From positions 1-64,000 of the forward strand of contig RYFE02000005.1 of the NCBI GenBank assembly GCA_004138175.2: DNA of 64,000 nt. Reading direction: 5' to 3'. The stretch's first letter is position 1. Each line of letters opens with the position of its first letter. Shown piece by piece: positions 16,373-39,424 of this stretch. Both the position numbers and the translations under genes were made by a program. The DNA is from Chloroflexales bacterium ZM16-3 (GTDB lineage Bacteria; Chloroflexota; Chloroflexia; Chloroflexales; Chloroflexaceae). Below the pieces are notes generated by a model. It was given only the letters and a program-made list of their open reading frames with translations. It searched no databases and was not told where the DNA came from.

Positions 16373-17769
16373 CAACCCATCCTGTGCCAGATCTTCGCCG
16401 TTCTGCCATCCCCATCGCCCTGACGATTATGCTGGGCCTGGCCCTCGATGTGACCGGCTCGCTGCATGTCTATGGGTTGAGCGCGCTGATGGGCCAGAAG
16501 CTCGCAACGGGTACCAGCCTGCTGCTGTTTGGCATTGCGTTGAGTTGGGTGGCGGTTGCCTCACGAGTGGATCTTGCTCTGCCTCGTGTGACAGGTATGG
16601 GGGGGCTGGGATTTCAGCGCCTCTTGACCTGGCTGCTGCTGCTGGCATGGCTTGCCACGGTGCGCAGCTGGCTGCTCATGGTATCGCCGCATGCATCAGT
16701 GCTGGGGCTATGTATCGCAGGCTGCGGTCTGCTGGCGCTGGCGCTGGCCATACGCTGGCCTCCCCATCCTCTCTGGCTCGTGGGAGGAGCGGCCCTGCTT
16801 GGAAGCATTGTGCGGGTTATGAGCTTTGCCTCTGTGCCGATAGACCCCGCGCATGGCGATATGCTTCCTTTGGTGCAGGGAGCCATCGGACATCTCCTGG
16901 CTGGCCAAAGCCCCTATGCGATGTACGCGATGCCATGGGAGGTGCCGCTTACCTATCTCCCGCTGACATGGCTGGCCTACCTGCCACCCTACCTCCTTGG
17001 GGCAGATCTGCGTATCACGAACCTGGTTGCTGAGCTGAGTGTGGGGCTTGCGTTGGCATGGCTGGCCCATACCACAGGTCAAGTGACAGGTCTGTCCGTG
17101 ACTGGGCTCCTGATCTGGGCATGGCTCTTCTTACAACCGTCAGCCCTGAGCTGGTCGCTGGCAACAACCGCACCTGTTCAGTGGGCGCTGCTGATCGCCC
17201 TGCTGGTGCTCCTCAGCACCGATCATGTCAGGATGTCTGCGATCATGCTTGGGCTCTGCGTGGCGGCAACCCCGCTGGTCAGCGTTATCATCCCTTTTGC
17301 GTTGCTGCGCTGGATGCGGCTGGGTGGCTGGCGGCTGGTGCTACGCTGCGTAGGCATTGCTGCGCTGCTTGGCGTGTCCCTCATTGCCCCATTTCTGATC
17401 TGGGCACCGCAGCTGTTTATCTTCGGGGTCTGGCGCTGGTTCAACGACAATGATCTGTACCCGCGTCTGCGCTGGGACATGGATCAAACCTGGGCACGCA
17501 TGATCGGATTCAGCGGGATGTTCTGGCGGCATAAGCTGGTGGGCCTCTTAAAGCCGATCCAGGCAGTGCTGCTGCTTAGCACTGCCGCCCTCTATCACCG
17601 GGGCGGCAGCACCACGATGGGTATGGCACCCTATGTTACGGCAGCGTTCCTGTTCTTTACCCTGTTCAATCCCGTTCTTTGGCCCTATCTGTATAATCCG
17701 GCCCTTCTGGCAGCCCTGGTTTCAATAACACCTCTCTGGCGGGCACAGACACAAAGGAGCATTGCATGA
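16369..17769 (+). CDS. Polytopic membrane protein, GT-C glycosyltransferase-like
   Basis: A 466-residue integral membrane protein with about 10-12 hydrophobic helices. The region PAHGDMLPLVQGAIGHLLAGQSPYAMY followed by VPLTYLPLTWLAYLP resembles the first long loop of GT-C (GT39/GT87-type) polyprenol-sugar-dependent glycosyltransferases, where an Asp is catalytic. The GTG start overlaps the stop of the kinase-glycosidase gene (GTGA), and its own stop overlaps the next ATG (ATGA), so the three proteins are translationally coupled. A role in building or modifying a surface glycan handled by its neighbours is an inference. Confidence 0.65.
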   Translation: MTTHPVPDLRRSAIPIALTIMLGLALDVTGSLHVYGLSALMGQKLATGTSLLLFGIALSWVAVASRVDLALPRVTGMGGLGFQRLLTWLLLLAWLATVRSWLLMVSPHASVLGLCIAGCGLLALALAIRWPPHPLWLVGGAALLGSIVRVMSFASVPIDPAHGDMLPLVQGAIGHLLAGQSPYAMYAMPWEVPLTYLPLTWLAYLPPYLLGADLRITNLVAELSVGLALAWLAHTTGQVTGLSVTGLLIWAWLFLQPSALSWSLATTAPVQWALLIALLVLLSTDHVRMSAIMLGLCVAATPLVSVIIPFALLRWMRLGGWRLVLRCVGIAALLGVSLIAPFLIWAPQLFIFGVWRWFNDNDLYPRLRWDMDQTWARMIGFSGMFWRHKLVGLLKPIQAVLLLSTAALYHRGGSTTMGMAPYVTAAFLFFTLFNPVLWPYLYNPALLAALVSITPLWRAQTQRSIA

Positions 17770-19487: not shown

Positions 19488-20582
19488 TTACCGCCAGGAT
19501 GCCAGCATGATTGCGCTGCCCTTCGACGGGACGCCTCCCCCGCCAGGGACAACCTGACCATTAGGATAGCGGACAGAGACCGTCACCTCTTGCCCGTCAC
19601 CGATGCCACACGCCCGTGCGTTGCCGCCACCGTCGAAGTTCCCGCCTACGCGCAACCCATCGACCGTAAACGTCCAACCGCTGGTGCTGATCCCGGATAT
19701 TCTGATTGAGATGCAGCTCGGGGTGTCGTTGTAGTTCAGCACGCTAAAGCGTAATTTCTTCGCGGTTGCCGCCGTGGATGTGGTTATGGCATTGATTCGC
19801 GTGGTAATGCGCGAGACGCAGGCGGTGGCTGTGTCAGACTCCTCGATTTCTTTGGCCTGCTTGCAGTAGCCGAGCGCCTTCTCTAGCGGATCTTTGGCGT
19901 TCGCATCCTGCTTCTTCGTCGCCTCGTAGGCCGCCGCCGCCGTTAGCAGTGCATCCCTTTCGAGCGGATTCAGCCCAGGGAAGTCGGGCTGATCGTTACG
20001 AAATGCCGCAAGCTGCGTCACGAGTGTGTCCGCATTACTCTGGCGCGTGGCCAGGTCTCCGTCCGCTTCCGCCAGCTGCTTGAGCGCGGTTAGTTGATCA
20101 TATTGCGCGATGAATGTGGCCGCCGCCTGGCTCTGTGCCAGCGCTGCGGCGTAGGTTGGGACATCGGGACTCGTCAGCGCCAAGCCATTGTTGAGCCGGT
20201 CAATTGCCAGCGAGAACGACGCGGCGAGCTGATCTGAGGGGCCGGTTGCCGCAGTGATGCTCTGTTGCCCCCATGCGAGGTAGGCATCTGCAAGTAAGCT
20301 GCTGGCCTCTGGGTTGTCGAGATTGCCTGCGTAGACCTTGCTAAACAGCGTGATCGCGTACTCAAATCGACCCTCGCTCAGCGCCTGCTTGCCAAGCACA
20401 ACGTCGGGGTTCTCAGTGACGGGCACGCTTGTTGGTGCCGGGGTGCCAGTGGGGGCCGCAGTCGGGTTGATGGTTGGGATAACCAGCGGCGTCACTGTTT
20501 CTGTTGTCGCGGTTGATAGGCCACCACATGCGGTGAGCAGGCTTGTGAGCAGGGTGATTAGCAAGATGATTCGGTTGCGCAT
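19488..20582 (-). CDS. Lipoprotein, last gene of the type VII-like run
   Basis: A 364-residue predicted lipoprotein: MRNRIILLITLLTSLLTACGG gives a signal peptide with lipobox Cys near residue 19, followed by a Thr/Pro-rich linker. Residues about 60-250 are helical and Ala-rich, with TPR-like features (LGKQALSEGRFEYAITLFSKVY). The C-terminal 90 residues look beta-rich (SVLNYNDTPSCISIRISGIS). No known family was recognised. I prefer the ATG at 20582; an upstream ATG at 20597 would overlap the PP2C stop. Position suggests co-transcription with the phosphatase gene. Confidence 0.7.
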   Translation of the reverse strand: MRNRIILLITLLTSLLTACGGLSTATTETVTPLVIPTINPTAAPTGTPAPTSVPVTENPDVVLGKQALSEGRFEYAITLFSKVYAGNLDNPEASSLLADAYLAWGQQSITAATGPSDQLAASFSLAIDRLNNGLALTSPDVPTYAAALAQSQAAATFIAQYDQLTALKQLAEADGDLATRQSNADTLVTQLAAFRNDQPDFPGLNPLERDALLTAAAAYEATKKQDANAKDPLEKALGYCKQAKEIEESDTATACVSRITTRINAITTSTAATAKKLRFSVLNYNDTPSCISIRISGISTSGWTFTVDGLRVGGNFDGGGNARACGIGDGQEVTVSVRYPNGQVVPGGGGVPSKGSAIMLASWR

Positions 20583-20589
20583 CGTATCC

Positions 20590-21939
20590 TCAGTCATCTG
20601 GTTGTTTATGGAGTAGTGCCGGGATCGGTGGTGCCAGGATCGGTGGTGCCAGGATCGGTGGTGCCAGGATCAGTGGTGCCAGGATCGGGCCAGGATCGGT
20701 GATGCCAGGATCGGTGGTGCCAGGATCGGTGGTGCCAGGATCGGTGGTGCCAGGATCGGTGATGCCAGGATCGGTGATGCCAGGATCGGTGGTGCCAGGA
20801 TTTGGTGTAGAGCTTACCGTAGTCGTGGGTGTTGTATTGACAACCTCCCTAGTCTGGGTGCGAGTCGGGCGCTTGGGCGGCACTGGGGTTAGGGTTGAGG
20901 TTGCGGTTGGCGTGGATGTCGGTGTGGATGTCGGTGTGGGTGTTATCGAGGGCGCAATTGTGCTGGTCTGCTCAAGCAGCAGGGCAGGTGTACTGGTAGC
21001 TGGCAGGAGCGTTGAAGTCTTCGGCAGCGGTGTCACCGTCGCATCAAATGCTGGCACTACTTCTTGCGCTAAGGCTGCGCGATAGCGCGCATACACTGCG
21101 CCGCTGCCAATGGCGATGGCAAGGATCGCCAGTAGCGTGGCGATCAGCAATCCCGGTCGGCGGCCTTTTGGTGACGATACAGCATAGCCAATGATGGCCG
21201 CGCTCACATTGTCTTTAGAGCCGGCTGCTATCGCGGCCCGTGCGATGTCTTCGGTTGCCCGCGTTGGCTCCGCGCCACGGGCCAGCTGCGCAAGCTGATC
21301 ATCGCTCAGATGTTTGCAGACACCGTCGGTACAAAGGAGAAGCCGCTCGCCGGGCTGGAGCAGCACATCAATAAAGAGATCGGGGACACTCTCTAGCGCC
21401 AGAGCATCGCCCAGAGCGTAGGTGAGGCGCAGCGCCTGCTTATGCTGATATGCCTCAACTTCATTAGTTCCGCTGCTAATCAGCTGCTCGGCATAGGTGT
21501 GATCACGGGTAATCTGTCTTGCCGGACCTTCGGCTGGAATTCGATAAGCCCGGCTATCCCCGATGCTTGCAATCGTGCCCTCTGCGCGGCCATCGTGCAG
21601 GCGAAGCACCAGCGCCACCAGGGTTGTCCCGCTGACTTTGTAGTCGGGGTTGCCCTGGCGCAGGCTGTTGATCTCACGCGCTACCTGTGCTATCCCATGC
21701 TCAAGCGTGAGCGAATCGCGAGACGGTGCCTCGCTCAGGTACGTGTGCAGGATCGTAACAGCCTGCTCGCTGAAGAGCTTCCCATCGATCCCGCCGCCCA
21801 TCCCATCGGCAACGATCGCAAACAGCCCGTCGTTCGTAAACTCAAGGCCAATCGAGTCCTCATTTCTTTGGCGACCGCCTTGATCTGTGTAGGTGGCACC
21901 AATCAGCGTGCCGGTATCTCGGGAGGAAGTTGTCGTCAT
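20590..21939 (-). CDS. PP2C-family Ser/Thr phosphatase, membrane-anchored, with repetitive tail
   Basis: A 449-residue protein. Residues about 8-240 form a PP2C (PPM) domain with intact metal-binding motifs: QRNEDS, VADGMGGG, LLLCTDGVCKHLSD and GSKDNVSAAII. A membrane helix follows (about 260-280), then a Thr/Pro-rich stalk. The tail consists of seven T/I-TDPG units, then LAPPI units, because an 11-bp unit within a 15-bp tandem repeat changes the frame. The extracytoplasmic tail is therefore low-complexity. It should dephosphorylate targets of the neighbouring kinase; this follows from synteny and family. Its start lies 20 bp after the kinase stop. Confidence 0.92.
   Translation of the reverse strand: MTTTSSRDTGTLIGATYTDQGGRQRNEDSIGLEFTNDGLFAIVADGMGGGIDGKLFSEQAVTILHTYLSEAPSRDSLTLEHGIAQVAREINSLRQGNPDYKVSGTTLVALVLRLHDGRAEGTIASIGDSRAYRIPAEGPARQITRDHTYAEQLISSGTNEVEAYQHKQALRLTYALGDALALESVPDLFIDVLLQPGERLLLCTDGVCKHLSDDQLAQLARGAEPTRATEDIARAAIAAGSKDNVSAAIIGYAVSSPKGRRPGLLIATLLAILAIAIGSGAVYARYRAALAQEVVPAFDATVTPLPKTSTLLPATSTPALLLEQTSTIAPSITPTPTSTPTSTPTATSTLTPVPPKRPTRTQTREVVNTTPTTTVSSTPNPGTTDPGITDPGITDPGTTDPGTTDPGTTDPGITDPGPILAPLILAPPILAPPILAPPIPALLHKQPDD
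20617..20802. repeat. 15-bp minisatellite within the PP2C gene
   Basis: About thirteen units of ccaggatcggtggtg with minor substitutions (tgatg, cagtg). One unit near 20683-20693 is only 11 bp (ccaggatcggg), which switches the frame read in the PP2C gene. Confidence 0.92.
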
Positions 21940-21959: not shown

Positions 21960-23225
21960 CTACGGTTTCGGCGCGGCCACGGCCGGCGTCGACGTAGGTG
22001 GCGATGTGGTCACAGCGGTTGGGGCCACCGTTAAGCTCGGGAGCGGAGTGACGGTGACACGCACGGGCGTAGGCGTGTTGGTGGGCTGCGGGGCGGGTGT
22101 CCCCCATCCAAACCCCATCGCTCCGACCAAGACGACACATAGCACCACCAAGGTTGCTGCCGCAGTCCCGATCTGACGCATAATGTTGGGCGGACGGGGG
22201 CCGCGCAGCTTGGCGGGCAGATTCCGCTCAGGTACCTCGTCGAGTCGCGCGATCACCTCGGCTGCTGTCGGACGATTCGCTGGGACGGGGTCAATCATCG
22301 CCATCACAAGCGCGCACAGTGGTTCAGATAGATGTGGGGCTTTCTCTTGAAGCTGGGATAGAGGAACAGAGCGCGTCCGATTGAACTCATCGGTGACACG
22401 CCCGGTCGGCACTGCGGCGCGTCCGGCCAGTAGCTCATAGAACATAACCCCCAGGCTGTAGATATCGGGTGGGGTGTCGATCCCTTTAGGGGTTGGGCCT
22501 CCGTGTCGCTCGGGGGGGCGATAGCGCGGCTGCCCCAGCTGCTCACGATTTCGCGTGTACCGAGTTGAGTCAGCAGCTGCGAAATCGACGACCACGCATT
22601 CGGGCATTGTCGGGATCGGCCAGCCCAGCGGTCGACGGAGCAGCACATTGGTTGGCGCAATATCGTGATGGACGATCTCCGCAACCGTATGGAGGTGATG
22701 GAGCGCTTCTGCCACCTGCCGCGCGATCAGCACAGCGACGCCGGTTGGGAGTGCCTCATCGCCATACCGCCGCATCAGATCGCGAACCGAGCCGCCTGCC
22801 TCATAGTTCAGAATGAGGCAGGGGTAATTCTCCTGTAGCCCGCCCTCATCGTCTTTAAATGTATCGAAGCACAGCCCCGGGCGGCGACCGCGCTGCGGTG
22901 ATATGTCGGGCGGGATCTTAAAGAGCTGAATGACTCGCGGGTGAAGAATACCTGGGTTGCTCAGGAAGGTGTGCTCATCACGCAGGTTGTCGATGCTCGC
23001 CGGGTGCGGGATTTTGATCACACACAGGTGATATGCGGCGACCCGCTCTGGAGTCAGGCGCTGCTTGAGCAGACGGGGCATCTGCTCGGCTGGAGGTTGC
23101 CCCTCGCGCCACAGGCGCCCAATATAGACACGGCCCTGACCACCCTCGAAGATCGGCATCAGGATCTCATACTCACGAATGCGGTGTCCCGGCGGCAGCT
23201 TTGGGATGAGGAGTGGTTTGCTCAT
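21960..23225 (-). CDS. Atypical Ser/Thr protein kinase, C-terminal membrane anchor
   Basis: A 421-residue kinase-fold protein: glycine loop FEGGQGRVYIGRL, CVIKIP lysine, catalytic loop VHHDIAPTNVL, metal site VVVDFAAAD, and RPPERHGG in the activation region. Compared with canonical kinases HRD is HHD, the catalytic-loop lysine is Ala (D-I-A-P-T-N), and DFG is DFA. The catalytic Asp and Asn remain, so activity is possible but not certain. A single helix at about residues 350-370 (TLVVLCVVLVGAMGFGWG) and a Thr/Pro-rich tail follow. The ATG overlaps the stop of the upstream VWA-FHA gene. Confidence 0.87.
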   Translation of the reverse strand: MSKPLLIPKLPPGHRIREYEILMPIFEGGQGRVYIGRLWREGQPPAEQMPRLLKQRLTPERVAAYHLCVIKIPHPASIDNLRDEHTFLSNPGILHPRVIQLFKIPPDISPQRGRRPGLCFDTFKDDEGGLQENYPCLILNYEAGGSVRDLMRRYGDEALPTGVAVLIARQVAEALHHLHTVAEIVHHDIAPTNVLLRRPLGWPIPTMPECVVVDFAAADSTRYTRNREQLGQPRYRPPERHGGPTPKGIDTPPDIYSLGVMFYELLAGRAAVPTGRVTDEFNRTRSVPLSQLQEKAPHLSEPLCALVMAMIDPVPANRPTAAEVIARLDEVPERNLPAKLRGPRPPNIMRQIGTAAATLVVLCVVLVGAMGFGWGTPAPQPTNTPTPVRVTVTPLPSLTVAPTAVTTSPPTSTPAVAAPKP

Positions 23226-25171
23226 GATGTGATCTCACAGAATACGCGCAGCTTAACCTCTGAGCTTAGCCAGAATACGTCACCCGACGCGAGCTGTTTG
23301 CGGTCGCCAGGGGCCATTGCCGCCTTCTCTGGGCCAAAAAAGGTGCCTTGGCTCGAATCACCTGCGATCAGGGTTGGCCCGCTGTTCAACAGTTCGATCC
23401 GTGCGTGATCGCGTGAGACTTGCTGATGTCGTAGTGGAATATCGGGCGTGCGCACGGTTGTCACGCGGCCAAGGTCGTAGTTGCGCTGGCTCTGCTTGAG
23501 CTCGATCCGCTGGGCCGTGTCGCCTGCCACCACCTCTACATACCAGCGCGTATGGCGCTCCAGAACTACGGTTCGCCGATCATGAGGGTCAAAGAGGGCT
23601 GTCCGTTCATCATCGGGTACCGCCAGGCGTCCGGTTACATCATCAGGGCTGTATGGTGCAGTTGCCTCATCGTCATTACTCGTGACGCGGGCCGTCATGT
23701 CATCATCGATCACAGGCGCAGGTGCCGCAGTCGGTCTTGGCTGCTGGCGGCGTCGCAACTGCCAGACGGCACCGGCTGCCCCGACCACAAGCACCACCCC
23801 TCCACCGATCATCAGCGGGAGAAACAGTCCGCTGAGACCCTGCGAGCTGGTTACGGCGGCAATCTCTATCTGCTGCGGCTGGCTACGGCTAACTTGATCC
23901 TGGGCATCCTTAACGGCGGCGATAAGCTCGTAGCTGCCCGATGGGAATCGCTGCTGAAATCCTGGGTCATTCGTGTCCAGCACATAGCGGAAGTCTGGCC
24001 CCTCGGTCACTGGGTCGGCGATGGGGAGCCCGTTGAGCAGATACTCGACCTGGGTGATCGGTGCCTGCTGGAAATCGACGCGGGTTGCCATCTGGACCGT
24101 GCCCTGGAACTCAGGGCTAGAGGTGATCAGGCTCACTACGGGCGGCAGCGCTGGGATATCGAGCGAGGCGGTCCCGTTGATAATTCCGACACTCACGGTG
24201 AGATTGGCTGGCCCCGACGCGATTCCCGTTGCGGAGAACCGCAGCGTTGTCATGTTGCTGCGGCGTAGCACGCTCGCGTACTGGTCGAATATCTGACGCT
24301 TGAGATCGGGGGAAGGCAGCTGTCCATCAACAACCACCGGTGTAACAGTGCCAACATCGGCCAGCGATTGAAGCCCCGTCAGCGCGGTCGGGTCACTCGC
24401 AAAGCCGTAGATCAGCAGATGGACGGGATGCCCTTTGGATTCTGCGGCGGCGAGCGCGTTGTGGATGGCGCTCGTATCGAACTCTTTATTGGGATCACCG
24501 GCGGCGAAGACAACAAGTGTGCGCGGCTGCTCCGGCGCAGCCTGATCCAGCCGCGACAGCGCCTGGATGATCGCTTCGTCAAGCGGGTATGGCCCAGCGC
24601 TGGATTCCTCAGTTGGCAACTGCGGATCAAACCGCACTTGAGGATTTGATCGGGTCAGCGTGTTCGCGATCGCTCCGAGGTCATTCGTCAACTCATGGGC
24701 GACCGTCACCGTCTCGGTGAGGATCATCAGCCCCGCGCGTTGATCAGCACTCTGGAGCTGACTCACAAGGTCGCTCACCATCGGCTGCATCAGCTGGAAA
24801 CGTGTTGCGTAGACGGCTCCGCGCTCGCCCATGCGGCTGCTCAGATCTGTCACCAGCATAACGGCACCAGGCACTTGGGTTTGCCGACGCTCAACACCGG
24901 GAACGGTCTTCCCCTCAAAGCTGACTACAAGGTCGGGCTGCGCCTGGGACGGAGACGGTGGAGCCTGTAGGGCGGCGAACTCAATGGTCGTCTCGATGGT
25001 GGGGAACTGTGAGAAATCAGTTCGTACAATGCGCAGTTGAGCGGTTCCCTGGGCCATGGCGCTAACCTGGGGAGATAGCAGTGTGCCGATGAGGATGGCA
25101 ACAAACAGCAGCAGCGCCCGATGGCTAGTGCGATGACGATGGACGTGTTTTGTTAGGGGAAGTTGTGACAT
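23222..25171 (-). CDS. VWA-TM-FHA protein (second copy)
   Basis: A 649-residue exported protein. An N-terminal hydrophobic segment (about 20-40) precedes a von Willebrand A-like domain with MLVTDLSSRMGERG where a MIDAS would be; the D-L-S-S-R variant keeps DxSxR-like oxygen ligands only partly. A membrane helix lies at about 445-468 (FLPLMIGGGVVLVVGAAGA), followed by an acidic, Thr-rich linker and a C-terminal FHA domain with VSRDHARIE and QGTFFG. The FHA part would be cytoplasmic and bind phosphothreonine. I start at ATG 25171, 8 bp after the previous stop with AGGA between; an upstream in-frame extension to 25309 overlaps that gene and looks non-coding. Confidence 0.85.
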   Translation of the reverse strand: MSQLPLTKHVHRHRTSHRALLLFVAILIGTLLSPQVSAMAQGTAQLRIVRTDFSQFPTIETTIEFAALQAPPSPSQAQPDLVVSFEGKTVPGVERRQTQVPGAVMLVTDLSSRMGERGAVYATRFQLMQPMVSDLVSQLQSADQRAGLMILTETVTVAHELTNDLGAIANTLTRSNPQVRFDPQLPTEESSAGPYPLDEAIIQALSRLDQAAPEQPRTLVVFAAGDPNKEFDTSAIHNALAAAESKGHPVHLLIYGFASDPTALTGLQSLADVGTVTPVVVDGQLPSPDLKRQIFDQYASVLRRSNMTTLRFSATGIASGPANLTVSVGIINGTASLDIPALPPVVSLITSSPEFQGTVQMATRVDFQQAPITQVEYLLNGLPIADPVTEGPDFRYVLDTNDPGFQQRFPSGSYELIAAVKDAQDQVSRSQPQQIEIAAVTSSQGLSGLFLPLMIGGGVVLVVGAAGAVWQLRRRQQPRPTAAPAPVIDDDMTARVTSNDDEATAPYSPDDVTGRLAVPDDERTALFDPHDRRTVVLERHTRWYVEVVAGDTAQRIELKQSQRNYDLGRVTTVRTPDIPLRHQQVSRDHARIELLNSGPTLIAGDSSQGTFFGPEKAAMAPGDRKQLASGDVFWLSSEVKLRVFCEITS

Positions 25172-25178
25172 TGGAGTC

Positions 25179-27428
25179 CTATGTCGTCTGTGGGATAATC
25201 TCGATCTCCGTATTCGGCCCGAGGCGAATCCTTGTCGGCCCATCCAGCACCTGTGGGGTTTGTGGTTCGATCTTGCGCTGGTTGATAAAAGTTCCGTGTC
25301 CACTGCCAAGATCGGTCAGGTTGAGCACGCCGTTGTGGAGGTTTAGCTCAATGTGTTTCCGCGACACCTGCTTGTCCCCGATGATCAGCAGATCCCCCGC
25401 GCGACCGATCGTACTTGGGAAGGAGGTCACCAGCTGTTCTGGTGGCAGATTGCCAGCCAGCGTGCGCAGCACCCGCACGCGGGCGCGGCTGACCTGAGCG
25501 GATGTCCGATTCCTTCCGCCTACGGAGGCGTCCTCTGAATCAAACCGCACCGTCAAGCCCTCCTTATCTACGACAGTTGTTGCCTTCTGTGGCGCAGAGG
25601 GGGCTGCGGGTGGAATCGGGGAGGCTGACGTATCGCGGATTGGGCGAGGTGCTGGGAGCGTGGTGGGCTTCGCCTTCTGCTGTTTGTAGTACACATAGGC
25701 GCTCCCTCCAGTAATGATCACGGCCAGAAGGATGAGCGCAATCATTGGCCACCGGTTGGGCCCCGCTGGTGGATTATAGGGGAATTGTCTTTCCGCTTTA
25801 GATGATGTCGCGCCAAGATCGAGGGTGAGCCGTAGCGTGTAATCACCAGCCGCACTATCTAGCAGTGCTTGCGGTAGATCTCGCACAATCTGTCGGTCTT
25901 CAGGCAGGGTAATCGGATCAAACTTCGCGATCTGGTTACCATTATGATCAATGATCTCACCACTAACCAATGGCTTGCTCTGTCCAATCCCCGTGATCTT
26001 CAGGCTCGTCAGCAGTTTGCCGGTATCGTATTTTGGTGTGACTTCAATGATCTCGAAGTTCACATTCGGCTTGTGGGTGATACATCTCTCGACGAGTAAT
26101 TCCGCCGTCTGGCCACTTATCGTCTCAGTTGGCTGCTTGATAGCAGACCCATCTGGCCCCCTCGCCCTGATGTTAAAGCAATATTCCTCACCAGGCGTAA
26201 ACTTATCTGCTGGGATAGAGATGGTCATTGGCAGGAGCGTGTCGAAGGTCTGGGTAATCGGGATCGAGATCGGATCAAGCAGGAGGCCACCGGTGCTCTT
26301 TTCGAGAACACTCACCTCGATCTTGGCGATTGTCTGGGGATTACTGATCTCTATCGGCAGCTGCCAGTGATCATCACTGTCACTATACCGAGGCTCGCGC
26401 ACAACAATGTTCGGCGCCGGGGCATAGTCGCGGCTAGAGCTGAAGGTGAAGGTTCCGGAGAGCATCTGCGCGAGTTTGTCGCTCGAAACCATAACCGTGC
26501 CACGGTTTTCGCCTTTAGCAGCGCTCACCCGTGCGCGAACCACCCACTGCGCATTGATACCGGCCATAATCGTCTTGAACTGCGCATCGATCTGGTTGAC
26601 ATCGCCGAAGGCAGGGAAGCCCATCGTGTTATTGGCCAGCGCTTTCAGGCTCTCCTGATCGACATTTGCGCAGTCAGCCGAATTACAGAGCCCAATGGTG
26701 TGAATAGGCGTGTGGTATTTCAGCGCCTCAGCCTCGACTGCCGCTTGGTCGAATGTGCTACAAGATTGGTTGTCATTGCCCGTCTCGTCACGCCCATCAG
26801 TAAACAGAATCATTGCCCGCCGATCATGCTTCTGGACAACCTGAACCTCCCGATTACCAAGCGCTTGGTAAGCGGCGTTGTAGAGGCATGTCATACCGCC
26901 TGGCTGTGCCTTAATGCCGCCGATCACCTGCTTGACCGTCTCGCGATTATCCTGATTGGCAATCAGTGGGGTGAATTGCTGCCCGAGGTCAACCTTGTTA
27001 AAGGCAAAGACACTGAATGCGGCCCCAGCCGGGGCGTCGTCAACCGACTTTTGGGCCGCCGCCAACACCCGCTCCATCGAGTCGATCATGCTCCCGCTGG
27101 TGTCGATCAGCAGAATCAGCGAGATAGGCGTTTTGGGGGTCTCGACCTTGGCCTGCTGCGGTGCGGTGCTTAGCCCGGTCTGCATCTGGATCTGCGCCGT
27201 TTCATTGATCGACGCAGTATCAGGCGGCACAAAGTGGCCCTGCCGGTCGCGCAGCGTGAAGTAGATATCCACATCCACGCCGTCGGCCTGCTCGGTGGCG
27301 ACCGTATTGATCGTCACGAGCGTCCAGTCGTTGCTCTGGGCGTTGATCTGGGGGGCGGAGGGGAGCAGCAGGCCAACGGCAATCAGGATCAGCATCCAGT
27401 AGGGGCGCATGGCTCTTCTCATGATCAT
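25179..27428 (-). CDS. VWA-TM-FHA protein (first copy)
   Basis: A 749-residue protein with signal peptide (about residues 8-30), a VWA domain with an intact MIDAS (LLIDTSGSMIDS near residue 105; FTDGRDETG further on), a beta-rich region, a membrane helix near residue 560 (MIALILLAVIITGGSAYVYY) and a C-terminal FHA domain (TIGRAGDLLIIGD, VSRKHIELN, GSGHGTFIN). The topology puts the adhesive VWA domain outside and the phosphopeptide-binding FHA inside. Start could be 27428, 27422 or 27410; none has a strong Shine-Dalgarno. Same plan as its downstream neighbour, so a duplicated pair. Confidence 0.88.
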   Translation of the reverse strand: MIMRRAMRPYWMLILIAVGLLLPSAPQINAQSNDWTLVTINTVATEQADGVDVDIYFTLRDRQGHFVPPDTASINETAQIQMQTGLSTAPQQAKVETPKTPISLILLIDTSGSMIDSMERVLAAAQKSVDDAPAGAAFSVFAFNKVDLGQQFTPLIANQDNRETVKQVIGGIKAQPGGMTCLYNAAYQALGNREVQVVQKHDRRAMILFTDGRDETGNDNQSCSTFDQAAVEAEALKYHTPIHTIGLCNSADCANVDQESLKALANNTMGFPAFGDVNQIDAQFKTIMAGINAQWVVRARVSAAKGENRGTVMVSSDKLAQMLSGTFTFSSSRDYAPAPNIVVREPRYSDSDDHWQLPIEISNPQTIAKIEVSVLEKSTGGLLLDPISIPITQTFDTLLPMTISIPADKFTPGEEYCFNIRARGPDGSAIKQPTETISGQTAELLVERCITHKPNVNFEIIEVTPKYDTGKLLTSLKITGIGQSKPLVSGEIIDHNGNQIAKFDPITLPEDRQIVRDLPQALLDSAAGDYTLRLTLDLGATSSKAERQFPYNPPAGPNRWPMIALILLAVIITGGSAYVYYKQQKAKPTTLPAPRPIRDTSASPIPPAAPSAPQKATTVVDKEGLTVRFDSEDASVGGRNRTSAQVSRARVRVLRTLAGNLPPEQLVTSFPSTIGRAGDLLIIGDKQVSRKHIELNLHNGVLNLTDLGSGHGTFINQRKIEPQTPQVLDGPTRIRLGPNTEIEIIPQTT

Positions 27429-27526: not shown

Positions 27527-28156
27527 TCATCCGTTGCGCTGAAGCACATGGAGCTGTATCTGGCTAAACTCCAGCACAATCATATCATTTGGCTGAATCT
27601 GGTGGCGACGGTTGCCGGTCAGCGGGATCTCACCGCCTGCGGTTCGCAGCACAACCGGGTTGTCAGCCAGGCACTCGAATACATATTTCCCGCCCTGGTA
27701 CGTGATCCGGGCGTGTCGCCGCGACACACGCTCGCTGTGCGGTAGTCCATTTAGGTTCACGGCTAGCAGCGCCTCGTCGGGCAGGTTCGAGTCCGAGCGG
27801 CCGATCAGGGCGGGGGACCAGTGAAGGGGAAAGACCTTCCCGCTCTTCGGCTCGCGCAGGTACAGCGGCGCGGGAAGCGCGGTGGCCTGTGGCGGGATCT
27901 GCGGGATACGCTCGGCGAGCACAACCCGTGTCTCGCTCCCTAGCTGCGACCCAATAGGCGTATCGTCAATCAGCGGTGTGCCATTGCCGCGCAATAGATG
28001 GTAGCCGCTTGGGTTAAGGCTCAGGTAAGGCAGGTCATCGCCAAACTCGGCGAGGATGGCGGCGATCAGCTCAACTGGCTTGAGCTTCGGCTGCACTTCC
28101 GCCGCCTCATCACCCTTGTCGAAGATATTGATTGTGAGCCTCTGATAGGCGCTCAT
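27527..28156 (-). CDS. Ubiquitin-like (YukD/EsaB-like) plus FHA protein
   Basis: A 209-residue soluble protein. Residues about 1-85 (LTINIFDKGDEAAEVQPKLK onward to SETRVVLAER) look like a beta-grasp, ubiquitin-like domain of the YukD/EsaB kind: strand, strand, helix, L-x-L-N-P-S-G-Y, then a T-P-I-G-x-x-L turn. Residues about 95-209 are an FHA domain with LIGRSDSNLP, VSRRHARITYQ and a C-terminal L-E-F-S strand. The start overlaps the ATPase stop (ATGA). EsaB in Firmicutes T7SS is a small ubiquitin-like protein and EssC carries FHA domains; here both functions seem fused in one protein. The beta-grasp call is inference by pattern. Confidence 0.75.
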   Translation of the reverse strand: MSAYQRLTINIFDKGDEAAEVQPKLKPVELIAAILAEFGDDLPYLSLNPSGYHLLRGNGTPLIDDTPIGSQLGSETRVVLAERIPQIPPQATALPAPLYLREPKSGKVFPLHWSPALIGRSDSNLPDEALLAVNLNGLPHSERVSRRHARITYQGGKYVFECLADNPVVLRTAGGEIPLTGNRRHQIQPNDMIVLEFSQIQLHVLQRNG

Positions 28157-34100: not shown

Positions 34101-36768
34101 CGACAACAGGCCGAAGCGCATAGTCCTCCCAAAGCAACGGCTGATCCCACCCGCTACCATCGGTCAGCCAGTGTACCATCGGCGGGCTGAGGCTGAGGGA
34201 GGCATCAGGCGCATGCCCGAGGGTGAGCAGCTCTTGGCGGTCGAGGTAGATCGCGGAGGTGATAGGGGCAATGCCTGGCCCACGAGACTCCGTCAGCGGG
34301 TCGGTGAGCGCCAGCTTTGTCGGCAGCGGGCCGGGCCAGGGGGCGCGCTGCGGAACGACGCCGCGCGAATCGGCCAGAGCGCGCAGCGCCTCGATCACCT
34401 CAAGAAACACCGGGCGGGAGGGCAGTTCGGCGGGGGCAATGTTAGACGTAGCATGGCGTCCCCACAGCACCGGCGGCAGGTTCCGCTGACCAGCTGGCAC
34501 ATACAGCTCGCCGGCGTAGGCCACCTGAATCAGCTCGATCTCCTCATTGCCCACCTGAAGGTAGCCGCGCCCTGGGATATTGTTCGGCAGGTACGCGGCC
34601 TCGGTGCGGCGGAGCATCTCGCGGCTCTCACCCTGGCTCTCGACTCGCAGACAGATGCGGTATTTGATATTTGAGCGCATCTGGTCAGTCACACCGCTCG
34701 GGCGCTGGGCGGCCAGCAAGAGATGGACGCCGAGGGAGCGTCCGATCCGGGTAATCTGCTCAAGCTGGCTCTTCGCATCCGCCCGGTCGGCGATCATCTC
34801 GGCAAACTCATCAATGACAATGAAGAGGAACGGGTATGGTATCTGGGTGATGTGGAGGTTGCGTTTACGATACTCGACGATCGTATTCACTTTGGCGCTG
34901 GCATTGAGGCGCTGGCGGCGGTCAAGTTCGGCGCGGATGGAGGTAAACATCCGCGTGACCGCATCGCCGTTCAGGTTGGTCACAATATCGACGCAGTGCG
35001 GCAGGTTGCGAAACGACTCGAAAGCACCACCGCCCTTAAAGTCCACCAGCACAAAATTCAGCGCGGTTGGGCTGTAGCTGGCGGCCATTCCGGCGATCAG
35101 TGCGATCAGCAGCTCGGATTTACCCGAGCCGGTGCTACCGGCAACCAGCCCATGGACACCGTCGCGGTTTGCCGAGAAGTTCAGGGCACGATCTTTATTC
35201 CCAGCCATCCGCCCGATCTTCGCCCGCAGCCATGAGGCGTTGCCCGCCTGCTCGCTCTTACTCCAAGCAGCTTGCGCATCTTTGACAAAGCCCTCGATTG
35301 TCGCATCGCTGCTAGATGTACCGTCATTGCTCCGCATCAGCTCCAGAAACGAGACGCTCTTCGCCAGGCCACTGCCCTCGGTCTGCTGGAGCTTGAGTCC
35401 CGCCATAGCTGTGGCCAACTCGGTCATCTGATTCCCATCGCGGATCGTGTCGGCGTTTCCGAGCAGACGCAGCGAATTTAGCCCAACCTCGGCATAGCGA
35501 AGGACTGTCTGGTCACCAGCCCGCTCAACCTCAATAAGCGCAGTACAGCCGCCGGGTGCCTTGCTTCGCCGAGGGACAAGGAACAGAACCGCTGCGCCAA
35601 GGATCGCCCCCTCCGCAATCAGAATCCCCAGACCGGCATCAGTCAGCGCGATGCTATGGAGTGGGTGTTTCGGATCGTTAGCGGCGGCAAGCAGATCGAT
35701 CACAACCAGCAGTTGTGGCAGAGTCGGGTTCTCACCTGCCTGCTGCTCTGGGTCCTGAAGCCGAATCTTCCGCTGGGCCAGCACTCGTCGTAGACCTTCC
35801 GACCAGCGATCTAACGCGGTCCCTTGCTCCGGGTCAGACGACAGCTCATCTTTCGGATCATCAAGGAATACGATAGCGGTACTATCCTCGCCATTGCTCG
35901 CATGGGGAAGTTGTCGAACCCATGCCCAGTCTGCACGGTGGTCTGCCACGAGGAGGATTCGCATGTCAGAGGGCGCATGGAAGGCGGCGACGTGAGCGAT
36001 CATCGCGCGGGCCAGATCAGTAGCGGGGCCGGGATCTCCCGCAATTGCGAGCGCATGAGAAAAATGAGGTGGGGGCGGGCCCTTCACCTCTTCATCGTCC
36101 TCGGGCTTCGGCGGCGCGGGGCGGAGCATCACCGTCACCGGCATCGCGCTGACAAATTGCGAGTCTGCCGCAAGCTTAAGTGCATCACGTCGCAGCTGGC
36201 TGTTGCCATCAGATTCGGTAAGCGTGTAGACAACGGTTGATGGTAGCGTCGCAACCCCAAGGCGCACCATGCCAAAGTCGGGGTCGCCGACCCGCCGCTC
36301 CCAGAGGCGCACCACATCTGCTGCGGTGCCTGACGGCTTGCGCGCCACGGCCTGTGCGTGCCGCACCAGCGCAGCGGTGCCATCAGGGTCAGGGTAGTTG
36401 TACTGGGCAAAGCGGCGCTGAGCTTCCTGGGCCGCGCGCATATCGCGGTAGAGATCGAGCAGCTGACTGGCGTAGGCATCCCGCTCAGCAGCACGCTCAA
36501 CCTCTTCGCCACGGTAGGTGTAGATCGCAAATGCCGTTGACGCGATCACCGAGAGCGCCATTGGGATGAGCAATAAGGGGCTACGCCCGCTGCCACCAAG
36601 CGACGAGACCAGGATATACCCGATGATCGTCGTCAGCGGGAGCGCCACCTGCACCAGTCGACTCGTTGTGACCGCACGCTGATCTGGTGGCTTGGGGATC
36701 TCAATGCTACCGAACGGGAGGTCGGGCTGTATGCGTGGCGGGCGATCAGAGGCTATCTGGTTACTCAT
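28153..36768 (-). CDS. Giant FtsK/SpoIIIE-type ATPase, EssC/EccC-like, seven P-loop domains
   Basis: A 2,871-residue motor protein, about twice the usual EssC/EccC length. Two membrane helices lie at about 40-58 and 64-84. Walker A motifs are near residues 543 (GSTGSGKSE), 914 (GAPGSGKTT), 1236 (GGTGSGKSE), 1581 (GASGTGKTS), 1909 (GGTGSGKSE), 2252 (GDGGSGKTN) and 2547 (GPPLSGKTT). Domains 1, 3 and 5 are full FtsK-like copies with VDFKGGGAFE or VDYKGGGAF, a VIDEFAEM/IIDEYAEM Walker B, and AAQRP or ASQRP. Domains 2, 4, 6 and 7 lack the catalytic Glu (ALDNLTEF, VVDTLAEF, MIDNIASL, LIDNFDEF). Thus three active/degenerate pairs plus one terminal degenerate domain. It should drive export of the WXG100 proteins upstream. 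The start overlaps the pseudokinase stop (ATGA). Confidence 0.93.
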   Translation of the reverse strand: MSNQIASDRPPRIQPDLPFGSIEIPKPPDQRAVTTSRLVQVALPLTTIIGYILVSSLGGSGRSPLLLIPMALSVIASTAFAIYTYRGEEVERAAERDAYASQLLDLYRDMRAAQEAQRRFAQYNYPDPDGTAALVRHAQAVARKPSGTAADVVRLWERRVGDPDFGMVRLGVATLPSTVVYTLTESDGNSQLRRDALKLAADSQFVSAMPVTVMLRPAPPKPEDDEEVKGPPPPHFSHALAIAGDPGPATDLARAMIAHVAAFHAPSDMRILLVADHRADWAWVRQLPHASNGEDSTAIVFLDDPKDELSSDPEQGTALDRWSEGLRRVLAQRKIRLQDPEQQAGENPTLPQLLVVIDLLAAANDPKHPLHSIALTDAGLGILIAEGAILGAAVLFLVPRRSKAPGGCTALIEVERAGDQTVLRYAEVGLNSLRLLGNADTIRDGNQMTELATAMAGLKLQQTEGSGLAKSVSFLELMRSNDGTSSSDATIEGFVKDAQAAWSKSEQAGNASWLRAKIGRMAGNKDRALNFSANRDGVHGLVAGSTGSGKSELLIALIAGMAASYSPTALNFVLVDFKGGGAFESFRNLPHCVDIVTNLNGDAVTRMFTSIRAELDRRQRLNASAKVNTIVEYRKRNLHITQIPYPFLFIVIDEFAEMIADRADAKSQLEQITRIGRSLGVHLLLAAQRPSGVTDQMRSNIKYRICLRVESQGESREMLRRTEAAYLPNNIPGRGYLQVGNEEIELIQVAYAGELYVPAGQRNLPPVLWGRHATSNIAPAELPSRPVFLEVIEALRALADSRGVVPQRAPWPGPLPTKLALTDPLTESRGPGIAPITSAIYLDRQELLTLGHAPDASLSLSPPMVHWLTDGSGWDQPLLWEDYALRPVVGLVDAPAAARQYPLSVDLARGHTVIYGAPGSGKTTFIRTLVTSLAASHPPDQLHMYVLDLGGRSLMPLSQLPHVGAVITPNEAEASYRERVEQLLREISDIVEQRKVVLGDAREDTLLSYNARYADKALPAIVLALDNLTEFVETFGGQVENAESGLDRLIALARQCRPYGVHLVITAGQPMQVPNQLAGFLTERFALRLTDSSHYRDVLGSHVAEVADLPGRGYSLIDQIPLSIQVATTDAAVIELFTSRLRAAVQAWPATRKAQLPIEIEALPKTMLLRTLLARTNERDDAEIRSKLARLIIDGWEASIKPERADWLSAAIGVTSGNKIRTLALEAAKDGVHGMIAGGTGSGKSELLMSLIVSLAMRYDPTVLNFVLVDYKGGGAFEPFHTLPHVVDLVTNLNKTAVRRMFTAIGAEMDRRARVLGFHQVKDVVEYRTKGLHLNNGPNSGPIPHLFIIIDEYAEMISDSPDFRDELDRITRIGRSLGVNLLLAAQRPVGVTDQMRANIKLRICLRVEGVDTSREMLRRPDAAFLPSGMPGRGYLQVGNEQIELIQVAYTGEKVPNQPLTERGEPPRFFEVVVRTTENLLRANGAERPAAPWPPALPPTLTFDPFSATDLPSAAQTMLARRKDDGVVLVPELATWMYNGGRWDTLIWGANTLQPVVGLVDNPQGAQQLPLTVNLNRGHAVLFGASGTGKTSFIRTLVLSLAATHPPEALHIHLLDLGGRSLQMLTALPHVGTVIVPDEGGYEEQVQLLWRELTATLNERKMRFGGIGAQNLNEYNARFPHEPLPAIVLVVDTLAEFIDSFSQRQGNDDEDNPLNQFITLARQGKTYGLHIVITANRLNTISSKLYGLFSERMALRLSDADDYAAIVGSRVELIDDLPGRGTTAIDRQALAFQVALLPPAPGSDQDEKTKIDIIGARMRTVIGEQGLRFTMPMRLSALPKAVFYREVLATRFAISPDTTTFAGQLHTAVIQSWQVQANSPEWLSVPLGIASGNLPRELTLEAQKDGVHGMVAGGTGSGKSELLMTFIIGLALVYPPTILNFVLVDYKGGGAFKPFETLPHCVEIVTNLNTSAVHRMFSAISAEIRRRQQLNADTGTKDIVDYRKRGFHHAQPYPHLVIIIDEYAEMIDSNPDYRLQLESITRVGRAQGVHLLLASQRPKGVSDQMRANIKLRLCLRVEDADTSRELLRRPDAARLPSGLPGRGFLQGSGERIELVQVAYCGDRVPLPDNVAVRWPGRAQQVAEPEAPKLFSYAVDVAMSVNGDTPVRRPWPSMLPTVFSLETMLPDWDKQEVRGTRTLRPELSAWLTGATADLWPGVDWHDTALRATVGLIDDPENARQDPLVLDLGRSHMAIFGDGGSGKTNLLRTIIAGLTATHRPDELHLFVIDMSGHSFRSVEEFPHVGAVLSSDEELFDERLRRLIDYLSREADARQQQISKADAASFMEYNQREPQPLPAIIVMIDNIASLQESYESLIEISLIPLTRRALGVGISLIVTGNTPGSMMSRLYGLFAERITFRQTNAERYMDIVGRGAVELDDTPGRGYIRVAGRPLLLQAAQPIGIYTPDGRQIRPEPAELRVIGDRMAAVFADLPDAGTRAHPIETLEREIALATLAAPDAADPAVIALGIGGDLLPAKINLRRSGPHFTIIGPPLSGKTTTLRSWALNLADHYTPDAISMVLIDLQSRFFDYGGALSMRKLPHIVQSISEPDEFAALIDWLDAECPNLATSTHQIFILIDNFDEFSEELETNSQRAKRLARLARRYGRDGLHIVIAASAESSVSDLRRRIQSSGYGLGLRTAAALGPLKVMRIPAGLEGRELPLGRGYIVKSGQTNLVQVATPYLIDPLADEDQQIADTMDTWVAQIAGRHPPREVKLPSTSPDPKVIQIQEVLRAAQAKLHQSGVTTNVVLAEQIGSVDEAEWNSRVALIALIPNILRQLNPSLPESVIASFHEEDLLRTLNDCVRETDGSTL

Positions 36769-37901
36769 ACGAAGATTTCACGAACTGACAAGAGTAAGGC
36801 TATCAGGAAGGCAACGAGCAGTACAATTGCCGCAATGCGAAAGATTCGTGCTGGTGGGGGCCAACGGCTCGGGCGGACGACCGGGGTCATGCCAATCTCA
36901 GTTCCCTTGATCTCATCGACGATAGCCCGTGCGTCGATCGGGCGAGCCGACGGGTTGCGGGCGAGCATCTGGAGCGCGAGATTGGCAATCGGCTGGACAT
37001 CCGCGCGCATGAGCGGAGTGACCTGGCCAGCGATGATTCGCTGATAGATCGGCTCTGCGGAGATCTGGTTGCGGGAAAAGGGGGGCGTGCTAGCCAACAG
37101 CTCGTACAACACGAGGCCAAGTCCGTAGACATCCGTCTGTGTACCCGCGCCGACCCCGCCACCTACACGCGTGGGGCTTGCGAGTTCCGGCGCAGTACCA
37201 CCTGGGCGAACCGCGTCCCGGTACCAGTGTTCAACATAGGTGCGGTTATCGGTTGTTTGGCGCAAGGTCGTCGCCAACCCGAGATCCACCAGCGTCACGC
37301 GGGGAACACCCTGATCACCCGCAAAGTGGACAAGCACACTCTCTGGCCCAAGAGCGAGGTGAAGATGCTGTGCGCCATGCACAAGCGCAATCGCAGAAGC
37401 CAGCTCAATAGTGATCCAGCCGATGTGATCGATCCATAGCTGCGGGTGCTTCTTCAGCACATCCTGGAGCGGCTCGCCTGGGATATGAGCAAAGAGGGTA
37501 TAGGTCACGAGCTGGTCGCTAAGCATTGCCCGACCTACAAGGCGCGCCTGTGCATTGGCTCGTGTGTAGGGCGATACGAGCGTGGGGAGGACAGGGCGTT
37601 GGTTTGCGGTGGACTGAAGCTTCTGGAGCAACTCAGCCTCACGAATCAGCCGATGCTCGTTATCTTGGCCGGGGTGGGCCACTTTAAGAAACACCCGCTG
37701 CTGAAGGTGAATGGCCTCATAGATCACGGCGGAGCGCAGCACCACGAGCGGGCGAACGACCTCAACATCGCCGAGGCGGTCTCCATATGCGAGCACCATC
37801 GGTGCACGTTCAGCCTGACAGAACGGCTCCTGACAGAAGAGTGCACAGGATGGAGCAGTGCGATCACAGAGCAAACAGACCCGATCCACAAGATTCTCCA
37901 T
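36765..37901 (-). CDS. Membrane-anchored pseudokinase, EssB/YukC-like in plan
   Basis: A 378-residue kinase-fold protein. The N-terminus has a cysteine cluster (Cys 9, 12, 19, 23, 28) that may bind zinc. The kinase fold keeps the VFLKVAHP lysine and LVDLGLAT (DFG as DLG), but the catalytic loop is HLHLALGPESVL: the HRD aspartate and the following lysine are gone, so phosphotransfer is unlikely. A C-terminal helix at about 352-370 (IFRIAAIVLLVAFLIALLL) anchors it with almost nothing outside. Firmicute EssB/YukC is also a pseudokinase with one membrane helix, and sits beside EssC; position and plan agree here, though sequence homology to EssB cannot be shown by eye. Overlaps the ATPase start. 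Confidence 0.85.
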   Translation of the reverse strand: MENLVDRVCLLCDRTAPSCALFCQEPFCQAERAPMVLAYGDRLGDVEVVRPLVVLRSAVIYEAIHLQQRVFLKVAHPGQDNEHRLIREAELLQKLQSTANQRPVLPTLVSPYTRANAQARLVGRAMLSDQLVTYTLFAHIPGEPLQDVLKKHPQLWIDHIGWITIELASAIALVHGAQHLHLALGPESVLVHFAGDQGVPRVTLVDLGLATTLRQTTDNRTYVEHWYRDAVRPGGTAPELASPTRVGGGVGAGTQTDVYGLGLVLYELLASTPPFSRNQISAEPIYQRIIAGQVTPLMRADVQPIANLALQMLARNPSARPIDARAIVDEIKGTEIGMTPVVRPSRWPPPARIFRIAAIVLLVAFLIALLLSVREIFV

Positions 37902-38049: not shown

Positions 38050-38349
38050 TTAATGAAAACGCGCCGCACCGAGCTCATCGCCGCGCTCAAACGCATCGAC
38101 TGAAGCGGTGAGATCCTGGCTGATCTCGCCACACTTCTCTGCCACATTCTCGATATATGGCTTGACCGTATCGATGAAGTAGGCCACGGCGGCCCCACCG
38201 ACTGCACCAATGAATGCCGTTGCCTTGAGCACGTTGCTCAGCGCAGTGAGCACTTTGACGACCTGCGTCAAGGTCTCACTGATCTGAGAGAACTTTTTTG
38301 AGAAATCCCTGACCACAGGGACATCCATGTAGACGCCATCCACAGCCAT
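38050..38349 (-). CDS. WXG100-size protein with central hydrophobic helix
   Basis: A 99-residue helical protein in the WXG100 array: MAVDGVYMDVPVVRDFSKKF, heptad-like helix SQISETLTQVVKVLTALSNV, then FIGAVGGAAVAYFIDTVKPY, and a charged C-terminal helix. The W-x-G turn is absent; a hydrophobic IGAVGGAAVAYF segment sits where the turn would be. It is therefore a divergent Esx-like protein or a membrane-active relative. GAGGAG precedes the ATG. The last gene of the array before the stem-loop. Confidence 0.65.
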   Translation of the reverse strand: MAVDGVYMDVPVVRDFSKKFSQISETLTQVVKVLTALSNVLKATAFIGAVGGAAVAYFIDTVKPYIENVAEKCGEISQDLTASVDAFERGDELGAARFH

Positions 38350-38409
38350 AAACGCTCCTCTCTTCGATTGACGATACTGGGTAAGATCCGGTGCGTTGGT
38401 GGACTATGC

Positions 38410-38748
38410 CTAGTAGAAGCTAAAGGCGTCGAACAGCCGGGACTTCACCAAGCGCTCAACTTCTTCATCGGCTCGCTCAATCACGTCGCGGGCATACTCT
38501 AGGTTCGTGCAGGTCGTAGAGATATGATTCTGGATGGTGGTGACATTCGGAATCAAAAGGGAAGAGACTTCCTCGACAAACGCGTCAGCGCCTTTGCCTT
38601 GCCAAGCCCCGCCGACAACCTGCTGAATCATCGCCTTCAGCGGGTTCATGGCTGCCTGCTCAACCGTATTCAGCTGATCCGTCAGGCCTTTTAGCACGCT
38701 ATCCAACACTGCCCGCGCCAAGCGGAGCAGAATTTCCGTTACGGACAT
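38410..38748 (-). CDS. WXG100 (ESAT-6-like) protein
   Basis: A 112-residue helical hairpin protein with the hallmark turn GGAWQGKGADAFVEEV (W-Q-G) at about residues 47-62. WXG100 proteins are exported as dimers by type VII systems and serve as substrates and co-export partners. A C-terminal region with DVIERADEEVERLVKSRLF carries a possible YxxxD/E-like export signal variant only loosely. AGAGGAG lies before the ATG. Flanked by two further family-size genes on the same strand. Confidence 0.85.
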   Translation of the reverse strand: MSVTEILLRLARAVLDSVLKGLTDQLNTVEQAAMNPLKAMIQQVVGGAWQGKGADAFVEEVSSLLIPNVTTIQNHISTTCTNLEYARDVIERADEEVERLVKSRLFDAFSFY

Positions 38749-38779
38749 AGTGGCACTCCTCTGCTACTACGCATACCTG

Positions 38780-39082
38780 CTAACTGCCGAACTGGCTACG
38801 AGAGGTGTCATCGGCCTCACGCATGTACTCCACCGCAGCCTTGACATCCTCTTCCAGCTCCTGAAACTTCTCGATCAGCTTGCTCAGCGACGGAGTAAGC
38901 TTGCTGCGGATTGCATCCACAAAAGCAGTGCCACCGCGTCCGAGCAGCGCACCCTCTTCCATCATATTAGCGATGCTCTGCATCTCCTGCACCACATCCT
39001 GTAGATCCTCGCCGCCCTGATGGAATGTCCTGGACATCTGCTCGGCCAGGCCATAGTCTAGTTTGATCTCGTCATGTGCCAT
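38780..39082 (-). CDS. WXG100-like protein, LxG variant
   Basis: A 100-residue protein with WXG100 layout: two amphipathic helices around EGALLGRGGTAFVDAI, where the Trp of WxG is Leu (L-L-G). The C-terminal YMREADDTSRSQFGS resembles the Y-x-x-x-D type VII export signal (Y86-M-R-E-A-D). GGAG precedes the ATG. By size, sequence plan and position it belongs with the proteins encoded on either side. Confidence 0.8.
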   Translation of the reverse strand: MAHDEIKLDYGLAEQMSRTFHQGGEDLQDVVQEMQSIANMMEEGALLGRGGTAFVDAIRSKLTPSLSKLIEKFQELEEDVKAAVEYMREADDTSRSQFGS

Positions 39083-39124
39083 CGTTATCGCTCCAGGTAG
39101 CCCCGGCGAGCGCCGGAATGCAGC

Positions 39125-39424
39125 TTAATTGCGGAACCGAGAGCTCGCCTCTTCTTCGGCGTGCTTCATCTTCTGTACGATCTCGCGCACCGTTCGGCTC
39201 GCCTCTTCGAGTACCTCGTGCAGCCGATGGGCGGCCGGGAGCACTTCACTATTCATCTCTGCGAAGAAGCTATCGGCACCACGACCGAGCCACCCGCCAT
39301 CTTCGAGTGGGCCCATACTGCGCTGAACCTGCTGGAGTGTGTGTCTGGCAGCATGCGATTGATTGGCGAACCGGCTTGCAATTTGCTCGAGCTGATCATA
39401 ATCAGCCCGAATTTCTTCAGCCAC
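39125..39424 (-). CDS. WXG100 (ESAT-6-like) protein, first gene of the run
   Basis: A 99-residue protein with the canonical turn GGWLGRGADSFFAEM (W-L-G) at about residues 43-57 between two helices, and a charged C-terminus HAEEEASSRFRN. The start is a GTG at 39424 with AGGAGG at 39435-39430, 5 nt upstream; an ATG 2 bp upstream is out of frame. It is closest to its neighbour at 38780 in the C-terminal region (E-E-A/DD-T-S-S/R-R-F). The likely first gene of the 20-kb run. Confidence 0.85.
   Translation of the reverse strand: MAEEIRADYDQLEQIASRFANQSHAARHTLQQVQRSMGPLEDGGWLGRGADSFFAEMNSEVLPAAHRLHEVLEEASRTVREIVQKMKHAEEEASSRFRN

Follow-up and report, generated by a model that had tools for sequence, protein, structure and literature searches.

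A ubiquitin-like and FHA domain fusion protein encoded beside the giant EssC motor gene of Chloroflexota type VII secretion loci

A type VII secretion gene run with a giant EssC

The window (the whole 64,000-nucleotide stretch of DNA analysed, from Chloroflexales bacterium ZM16-3) carries on its minus strand a run of type VII secretion system (T7SS) genes in the order four WXG100 genes, kinase 1, EssC, a ubiquitin-like–FHA fusion (UBL-FHA), vWA-FHA 2, vWA-FHA 1, kinase 2, a PP2C phosphatase and a lipoprotein-like gene, with several short overlaps. The features are as follows.

38050..39424, minus strand: four tandem WXG100 genes (39125-39424, 38780-39082, 38410-38748 and 38050-38349); PF06013/TIGR03930, two over the curated cut-off and two below
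36765..37901, minus strand: predicted membrane pseudokinase (kinase 1), overlapping EssC by 4 nt; Pkinase 4.3e-14, single C-terminal TM helix
28153..36768, minus strand: giant EssC/EccC-type T7SS ATPase, 2871 aa; TIGR03928 1429.6 bits, two N-terminal TM helices
27527..28156, minus strand: UBL-FHA adaptor gene, 209 aa; residues 1-85 ubiquitin-like beta-grasp, ~86-92 linker, 93-209 FHA
27902..28156, minus strand: segment for the ubiquitin-like (YukD/EsaB/EccD-like) domain, residues 1-85; AlphaFold2 (AF2) pLDDT ~94, YukD model in 6/16 orthologues
27530..27880, minus strand: segment for the FHA domain, residues 93-209; conserved G119 R120, S145 R146 and N166
25179..27428, minus strand: vWA-TM-FHA protein 2; VWA 5.1e-8, FHA 1.4e-12, TM between
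23222..25309, minus strand: vWA-TM-FHA protein 1; FHA 1.8e-6, VWA_2 1e-5 (just under cut-off), TM
21960..23225, minus strand: membrane Ser/Thr kinase 2; Pkinase 9.1e-23
20590..21939, minus strand: PP2C-type phosphatase with a TM segment; PF13672 1.5e-12
19488..20597, minus strand: lipoprotein-like protein, weak TPR, conserved beside several homologous loci

Seven Walker A motifs, in the order (D1-D2)x3-D3, are present in the window EssC; the D1 copies are 53-62% and the D2 copies 34-44% identical to one another. Complete EssC proteins at Chloroflexota UBL-FHA loci are ~2,900-2,990 aa long, and the giant form is about twice the usual EssC/EccC length. The initial annotation described this ATPase as lacking an FHA domain, and indeed there is none at its N-terminus, the first TM helix starting at residue 38 and leaving no room for one. 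In the complete Chloroflexota EssC N-termini (~25 loci) there is at most a short tail before the membrane helices, including at loci where the UBL stands alone. Because EssC lacks the FHA domain whether the UBL is fused or not, FHA-less EssC, which resembles actinobacterial EccC in this regard, is general in the phylum and is no trade-off for the fusion. The further suggestion that the fusion relocates an FHA domain from EssC is therefore not borne out, as nothing indicates that an FHA domain left EssC, and the parts are not gathered into one adaptor either, since the two vWA-TM-FHA proteins of the same run carry more FHA domains.

In all ten aligned kinase 1 homologues the catalytic HRD Asp is absent; by its sequence kinase 1 is a conserved pseudokinase, EssB-like by topology alone (a cytosolic pseudokinase with a C-terminal TM helix) and a possible EssB counterpart. 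Kinase 2 retains the catalytic Lys, HHD and Asn in an alignment of seven homologues and looks active. Near the T7SS genes, on the plus strand at 13610-16372 and 17766-19484, are two related glucosidase/hairpin-like domains, one of which is joined to a Ser/Thr kinase that looks active and has a TM segment.

UBL-FHA is a predicted soluble protein with an FHA domain

The UBL-FHA start overlaps the EssC stop by 4 nt (ATGA), as annotated initially, and is preceded at 7 nt by GGGAG, a good ribosome-binding sequence lying inside the EssC 3' end. The overlap is not conserved: orthologues have gaps of -8 to +275 nt between the two genes, and the 4-nt overlap is present in the window and in three others. 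A TM helix was sought in the 209 aa and none was found, in agreement with the protein having been called soluble; it is most likely a cytosolic adaptor, and the initial reading of it as an adaptor was a sensible one. The AF2 model of the whole protein has a mean pLDDT of 93.9 and a pTM of 0.87.

The FHA half is matched by PF00498 at 23.9 bits (cut-off 20.7), and the same profile matches 16/16 aligned homologues with a best E of 1.7e-9. The AF2 model superimposes on solved FHA domains of MDC1 (Z 14.0, 2.1 A, 102 residues), EmbR (Z 13.5, 1.8 A, 95 residues) and Rv0020c (Z 13.3, 2.0 A, 95 residues). At the positions that contact phosphothreonine (pThr) in known FHA domains, G119-R120 and S145-R146 are kept in all 16 aligned sequences and N166 in 15 of them, N166 aligning in the profile alignment with the pThr-site Asn of the canonical T-N-G-T motif. 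The His of S-R-x-H is variable in orthologues (10 H, 6 Q).

The N-terminal half has a predicted ubiquitin fold

Residues 5-82 are modelled as beta-beta-alpha-beta-(beta)-beta with a pLDDT of ~94. When residues 1-92 are modelled alone (pLDDT 89.3) the order is beta5-11, beta15-21, alpha27-38, beta52-56, a short beta61, a helix at 69-72 and beta77-82, which in the model is the ubiquitin/YukD topology. Foldseek matches include ubiquitin, ISG15 and a bacterial Ubl (8tyx) with E ~1e-4, and VIA-align returns many beta-grasp proteins with Z of 10-11, EccD5 of ESX-5 among them (7b9f_X; Z 10.2, 2.7 A, 89 residues). As these Z values are tied, the fold match alone cannot pick YukD/EccD over other beta-grasp proteins. 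The beta-grasp–FHA fusion proposed in the initial annotation is thus confirmed by the AF2 model, the structure matches, that to EccD5 included, and the profiles; for residues 1-85 the fold predicted with confidence is a beta-grasp and not some other.

Assignment to the YukD/EsaB family draws on other observations. The PF08817 YukD profile (cut-off 27 bits) gives no match to the window protein itself, and it matches 6/16 orthologues below threshold (best E 6.9e-4); whole-genome YukD matches include the orthologues in genomes G038 (E 0.0016) and G070 (E 0.0098), and cousin proteins at loci L081, L084, L038 and L070 score over the cut-off. In profile-profile comparisons the window-type N-terminus matches stand-alone YukD weakly (probability 3.9, E 0.011) and a second type of fusion, C55-type, described below, more strongly (probability 77, E 2e-5); the C55-type itself matches stand-alone YukD with an E of 8.5e-9. 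Against PDB sequences the N-terminal profile gave only chance matches. It is on the sub-threshold matches in six of 16 orthologues, the two whole-genome matches, the chain through the C55-type and the position beside EssC that the YukD/EsaB assignment rests.

A ubiquitin fold could also point to covalent ubiquitin-like conjugation, and a YukD-E2 fusion does exist elsewhere in the phylum (L083, below). We regard such a pathway as highly improbable for this protein: the ubiquitin-like domain has no exposed C-terminal Gly-Gly and runs on into the linker and the FHA domain, and no E1, E2 or JAB genes were seen among the Pfam-scanned neighbours.

The fusion accompanies EssC in many Chloroflexota

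A whole-genome search over 400 sampled Chloroflexota genomes found full-length relatives in 10, the genome of the window among them. A scan of GTDB species genomes, in which a single-sequence query had no match and an alignment query succeeded, located 15 named loci at 34-42% identity, so the fusion does occur elsewhere, which the initial annotation had proposed to look for. The organisms are Herpetosiphon aurantiacus, H. geysericola, H. giganteus, H. llansteffanensis, Candidatus Viridilinea halotolerans and Candidatus Oscillochloris fontis, the remaining loci being from several Anaerolineae/Chloroflexi MAGs. In all 15 UBL-FHA lies directly downstream of EssC, and the fusion is therefore not a chance one. 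A kinase 1 homologue is usually found upstream of EssC where the contig extends far enough, and a WXG100-type gene often follows UBL-FHA. No UBL-FHA was found in the viral contigs scanned.

These neighbourhoods bear on whether the protein is simply a regulatory reader, with the FHA domain sensing phosphorylated vWA or kinase proteins and the UBL serving as a generic interaction module without a structural role in secretion, comparable to type VI FHA regulators. The kinase, the phosphatase and the two vWA-TM-FHA proteins nearby are compatible with this, as is a weak similarity to TIGR03354 (T6SS TagH/VI_FHA), at 26.2 bits far below the 120.25 cut-off. However, it is EssC that the gene accompanies, not the vWA or kinase genes, several of the named loci having EssC and UBL-FHA without vWA or kinase genes in reach, and a ubiquitin-like domain is a near-universal T7SS part according to the available part of a 2024 survey of T7SS subtypes (PMC11217815). 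We consider a purely regulatory reader improbable.

Related fusions extend beyond the window type. Contig 55 of the same genome (L038:7611-12380) has a second, compact T7SS locus with a 1,349-aa EssC, a kinase, a small WXG-like gene and a 216-aa protein combining a YukD domain (7.5e-8, over cut-off) with a degenerate FHA domain; such C55-type proteins are also present in several related genomes. In two genomes of another family the fusions at L081 (YukD 1.3e-12, FHA 2.4e-16) and L084 (YukD 4.2e-6, FHA 6.8e-17) exceed both Pfam cut-offs and adjoin EssC-like genes. The G-R motif is missing from the C55-type paralogues (L038 and others), and phospho-reading is therefore not a property of the whole fusion family.

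In a tree of EssC N-terminal halves, 20 loci with the fusion are separated by one branch from 15 loci in which the UBL is not fused to FHA, and the trait requires one change (0/500 shuffles). This tree was made by a quick method, is unrooted, has one long row (L113) and covers loci chosen non-randomly; the split fits a single origin of the fusion.

Other domain combinations were noted in the course of these searches. On contig 86 of the same genome, L039:9459-9824 encodes an FHA-only remnant of UBL-FHA followed by a WXG100-type gene; it seems to be a decayed or cut-out copy, as the UBL part is missing upstream and the pThr Arg is lost (IIGH). L083:5329-6246 (minus strand) of genome G005, close to a vWA protein, encodes a YukD domain (1.2e-10) fused to an E2 domain (2.6e-10), the latter with the motif HPN...C. 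A UBL-TM protein whose C-terminus resembles the locus lipoprotein is encoded in genome G198 (L073:5876-7099, plus strand), and one with UBL, TM and WD40-like repeats in genome G340 (L085:4153-5688, minus strand). Kinase-FHA fusions in other Chloroflexota (L013, L014) have FHA domains that match the query. Many FHA matches in one family of the phylum (f13: L020, L021, L026-L029) are FHA-TM proteins and were ruled out as fusions. A regex scan had listed stand-alone-UBL loci without kinases or FHA domains; that class is unreliable, as HMM searches place partial PP2C matches 2-7 kb from several of them.

Comparison with characterized T7SS components

UBL-FHA shares with EsaB/YukD of T7SSb and with TsxB of T7SSc-T7SSj a ubiquitin fold without a C-terminal GG, a place in the EssC locus and solubility; those proteins are small and stand alone, whereas here an FHA domain is fused at the C-terminus. 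The N-terminal domain of EccD (T7SSa, ESX) has the same fold as the UBL half and is likewise fused, but is followed by ~11 TM helices, in place of the soluble FHA domain of a 209-aa protein without any. Like UBL-FHA, the N-terminal FHA region of T7SSb EssC is tied to the same motor and a neighbouring pseudokinase; there it acts in cis on EssC, whereas here the FHA domain is in trans on the UBL protein and keeps the pThr-contact residues. TseJ/TsfJ of T7SSe/f (DUF6382-FHA) are also separate FHA components, from loci with a PPM phosphatase and, in T7SSe, a kinase, although their N-terminal domain is DUF6382 rather than ubiquitin-like.

As a whole the locus resembles T7SSc (TscA-TscG), which likewise has WXG100 proteins, a ubiquitin-like protein, an ATPase, a kinase, a PPM phosphatase and a vWA protein in one cluster. 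There are differences: the vWA protein TscE is predicted to be cytoplasmic without a TM helix, whereas each vWA protein of the window has a TM helix together with an FHA domain; the kinase active site is retained in TscD, whereas the EssC-adjacent kinase in the window is a predicted pseudokinase; and seven ATPase modules in EssC are unlike T7SSc. In its available part, the 2024 survey covers Bacillota and Actinomycetota only, has TsxB as a small protein with FHA components separate, and contains no mention of a UBL-FHA fusion (PMC11217815). YukD is mentioned in the beta-grasp surveys of 2006 and 2007, in which FHA does not occur, and no description of a UBL-FHA fusion was found in the open-access literature.

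A possible link between the motor and phosphorylation

We propose, with slightly better than even confidence, that UBL-FHA is an EsaB/YukD-type component of a Chloroflexota T7SS with a C-terminal FHA domain, which docks on EssC, binds a pThr partner and couples the motor to the state of kinase 2 and the phosphatase. By analogy with the EccD ubiquitin-like domain on EccC, the beta-grasp half would dock non-covalently on the membrane-proximal part of EssC. The FHA half would bind a cytosolic segment, phosphorylated on threonine, of a membrane protein from the same locus, the leading candidate being the EssB-like pseudokinase just upstream. Through this protein the assembly or the activity of the motor would be tied to the state that kinase 2 and the phosphatase impose. 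Precedents exist for both contacts, which the fused protein may unite as an EccD-UBL/EccC-type and an FHA/pseudokinase-type contact: in T7SSa the EccD UBL contacts the DUF of EccC (PMC6986878), and in T7SSb EssB and EssA are recruited by the FHA2 domain of EssC (PMC9436818), while the pseudokinase domain of YukC co-purifies with the FHA region of YukB (PMC9600267). Secretion requires EsaB (PMC5845737). Against docking, a two-hybrid assay saw no YukD-YukB binding (PMC9600267).

The T7SSb precedent also offers a phosphorylation-independent explanation, in which UBL-FHA is a scaffold whose FHA domain clamps the EssB-like pseudokinase constitutively while the UBL tethers it to EssC, without a signalling role. 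The T7SSb EssC FHA domains bind the pseudokinase with no need of phosphothreonine (PMC9600267, PMC9436818), so the conserved pocket here need not mean phospho-switching; moreover, the pseudokinase gene is adjacent and C55-type cousins have a degenerate FHA domain. On the other hand, the giant-EssC lineage shows little or no variation at the pThr-contact positions, whereas the T7SSb EssC FHA domains lost these residues (PMC11217815, available part), and kinase 2 and the PP2C phosphatase lie in the same gene run. Given the conserved pThr residues, the kinase and the phosphatase, we clearly favor a phospho-dependent over a constitutive contact; the FHA half probably binds its locus partner phospho-dependently, and a phosphorylation-independent scaffold seems to us unlikely, though a more serious contender than a purely regulatory reader.

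Returning to phospho-dependent coupling, a bolder form of it, which we put forward only tentatively, is that Chloroflexota have a T7SS specific to their lineage, with the EsaB subunit itself as the phospho-reader: its UBL would sit on the seven-module EssC and its FHA domain would read the kinase/phosphatase state of the locus and gate secretion. If so, EsaB would be the regulatory entry point, a role served free of phosphorylation by the EssC FHA in Bacillota.

The presence of UBL-FHA beside T7SS motors in many Chloroflexota hints at how the poorly understood UBL part is wired to kinase signalling. That the fusion is conserved suggests that the UBL and the FHA-bound partner act at one and the same site of the motor, and that threonine phosphorylation can control this site. 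The catalogue of T7SS subtypes is extended to Chloroflexota, outside the coverage of the 2024 survey in its available part, and UBL-FHA, being compact and soluble, makes both contacts testable, also in culturable Herpetosiphon.
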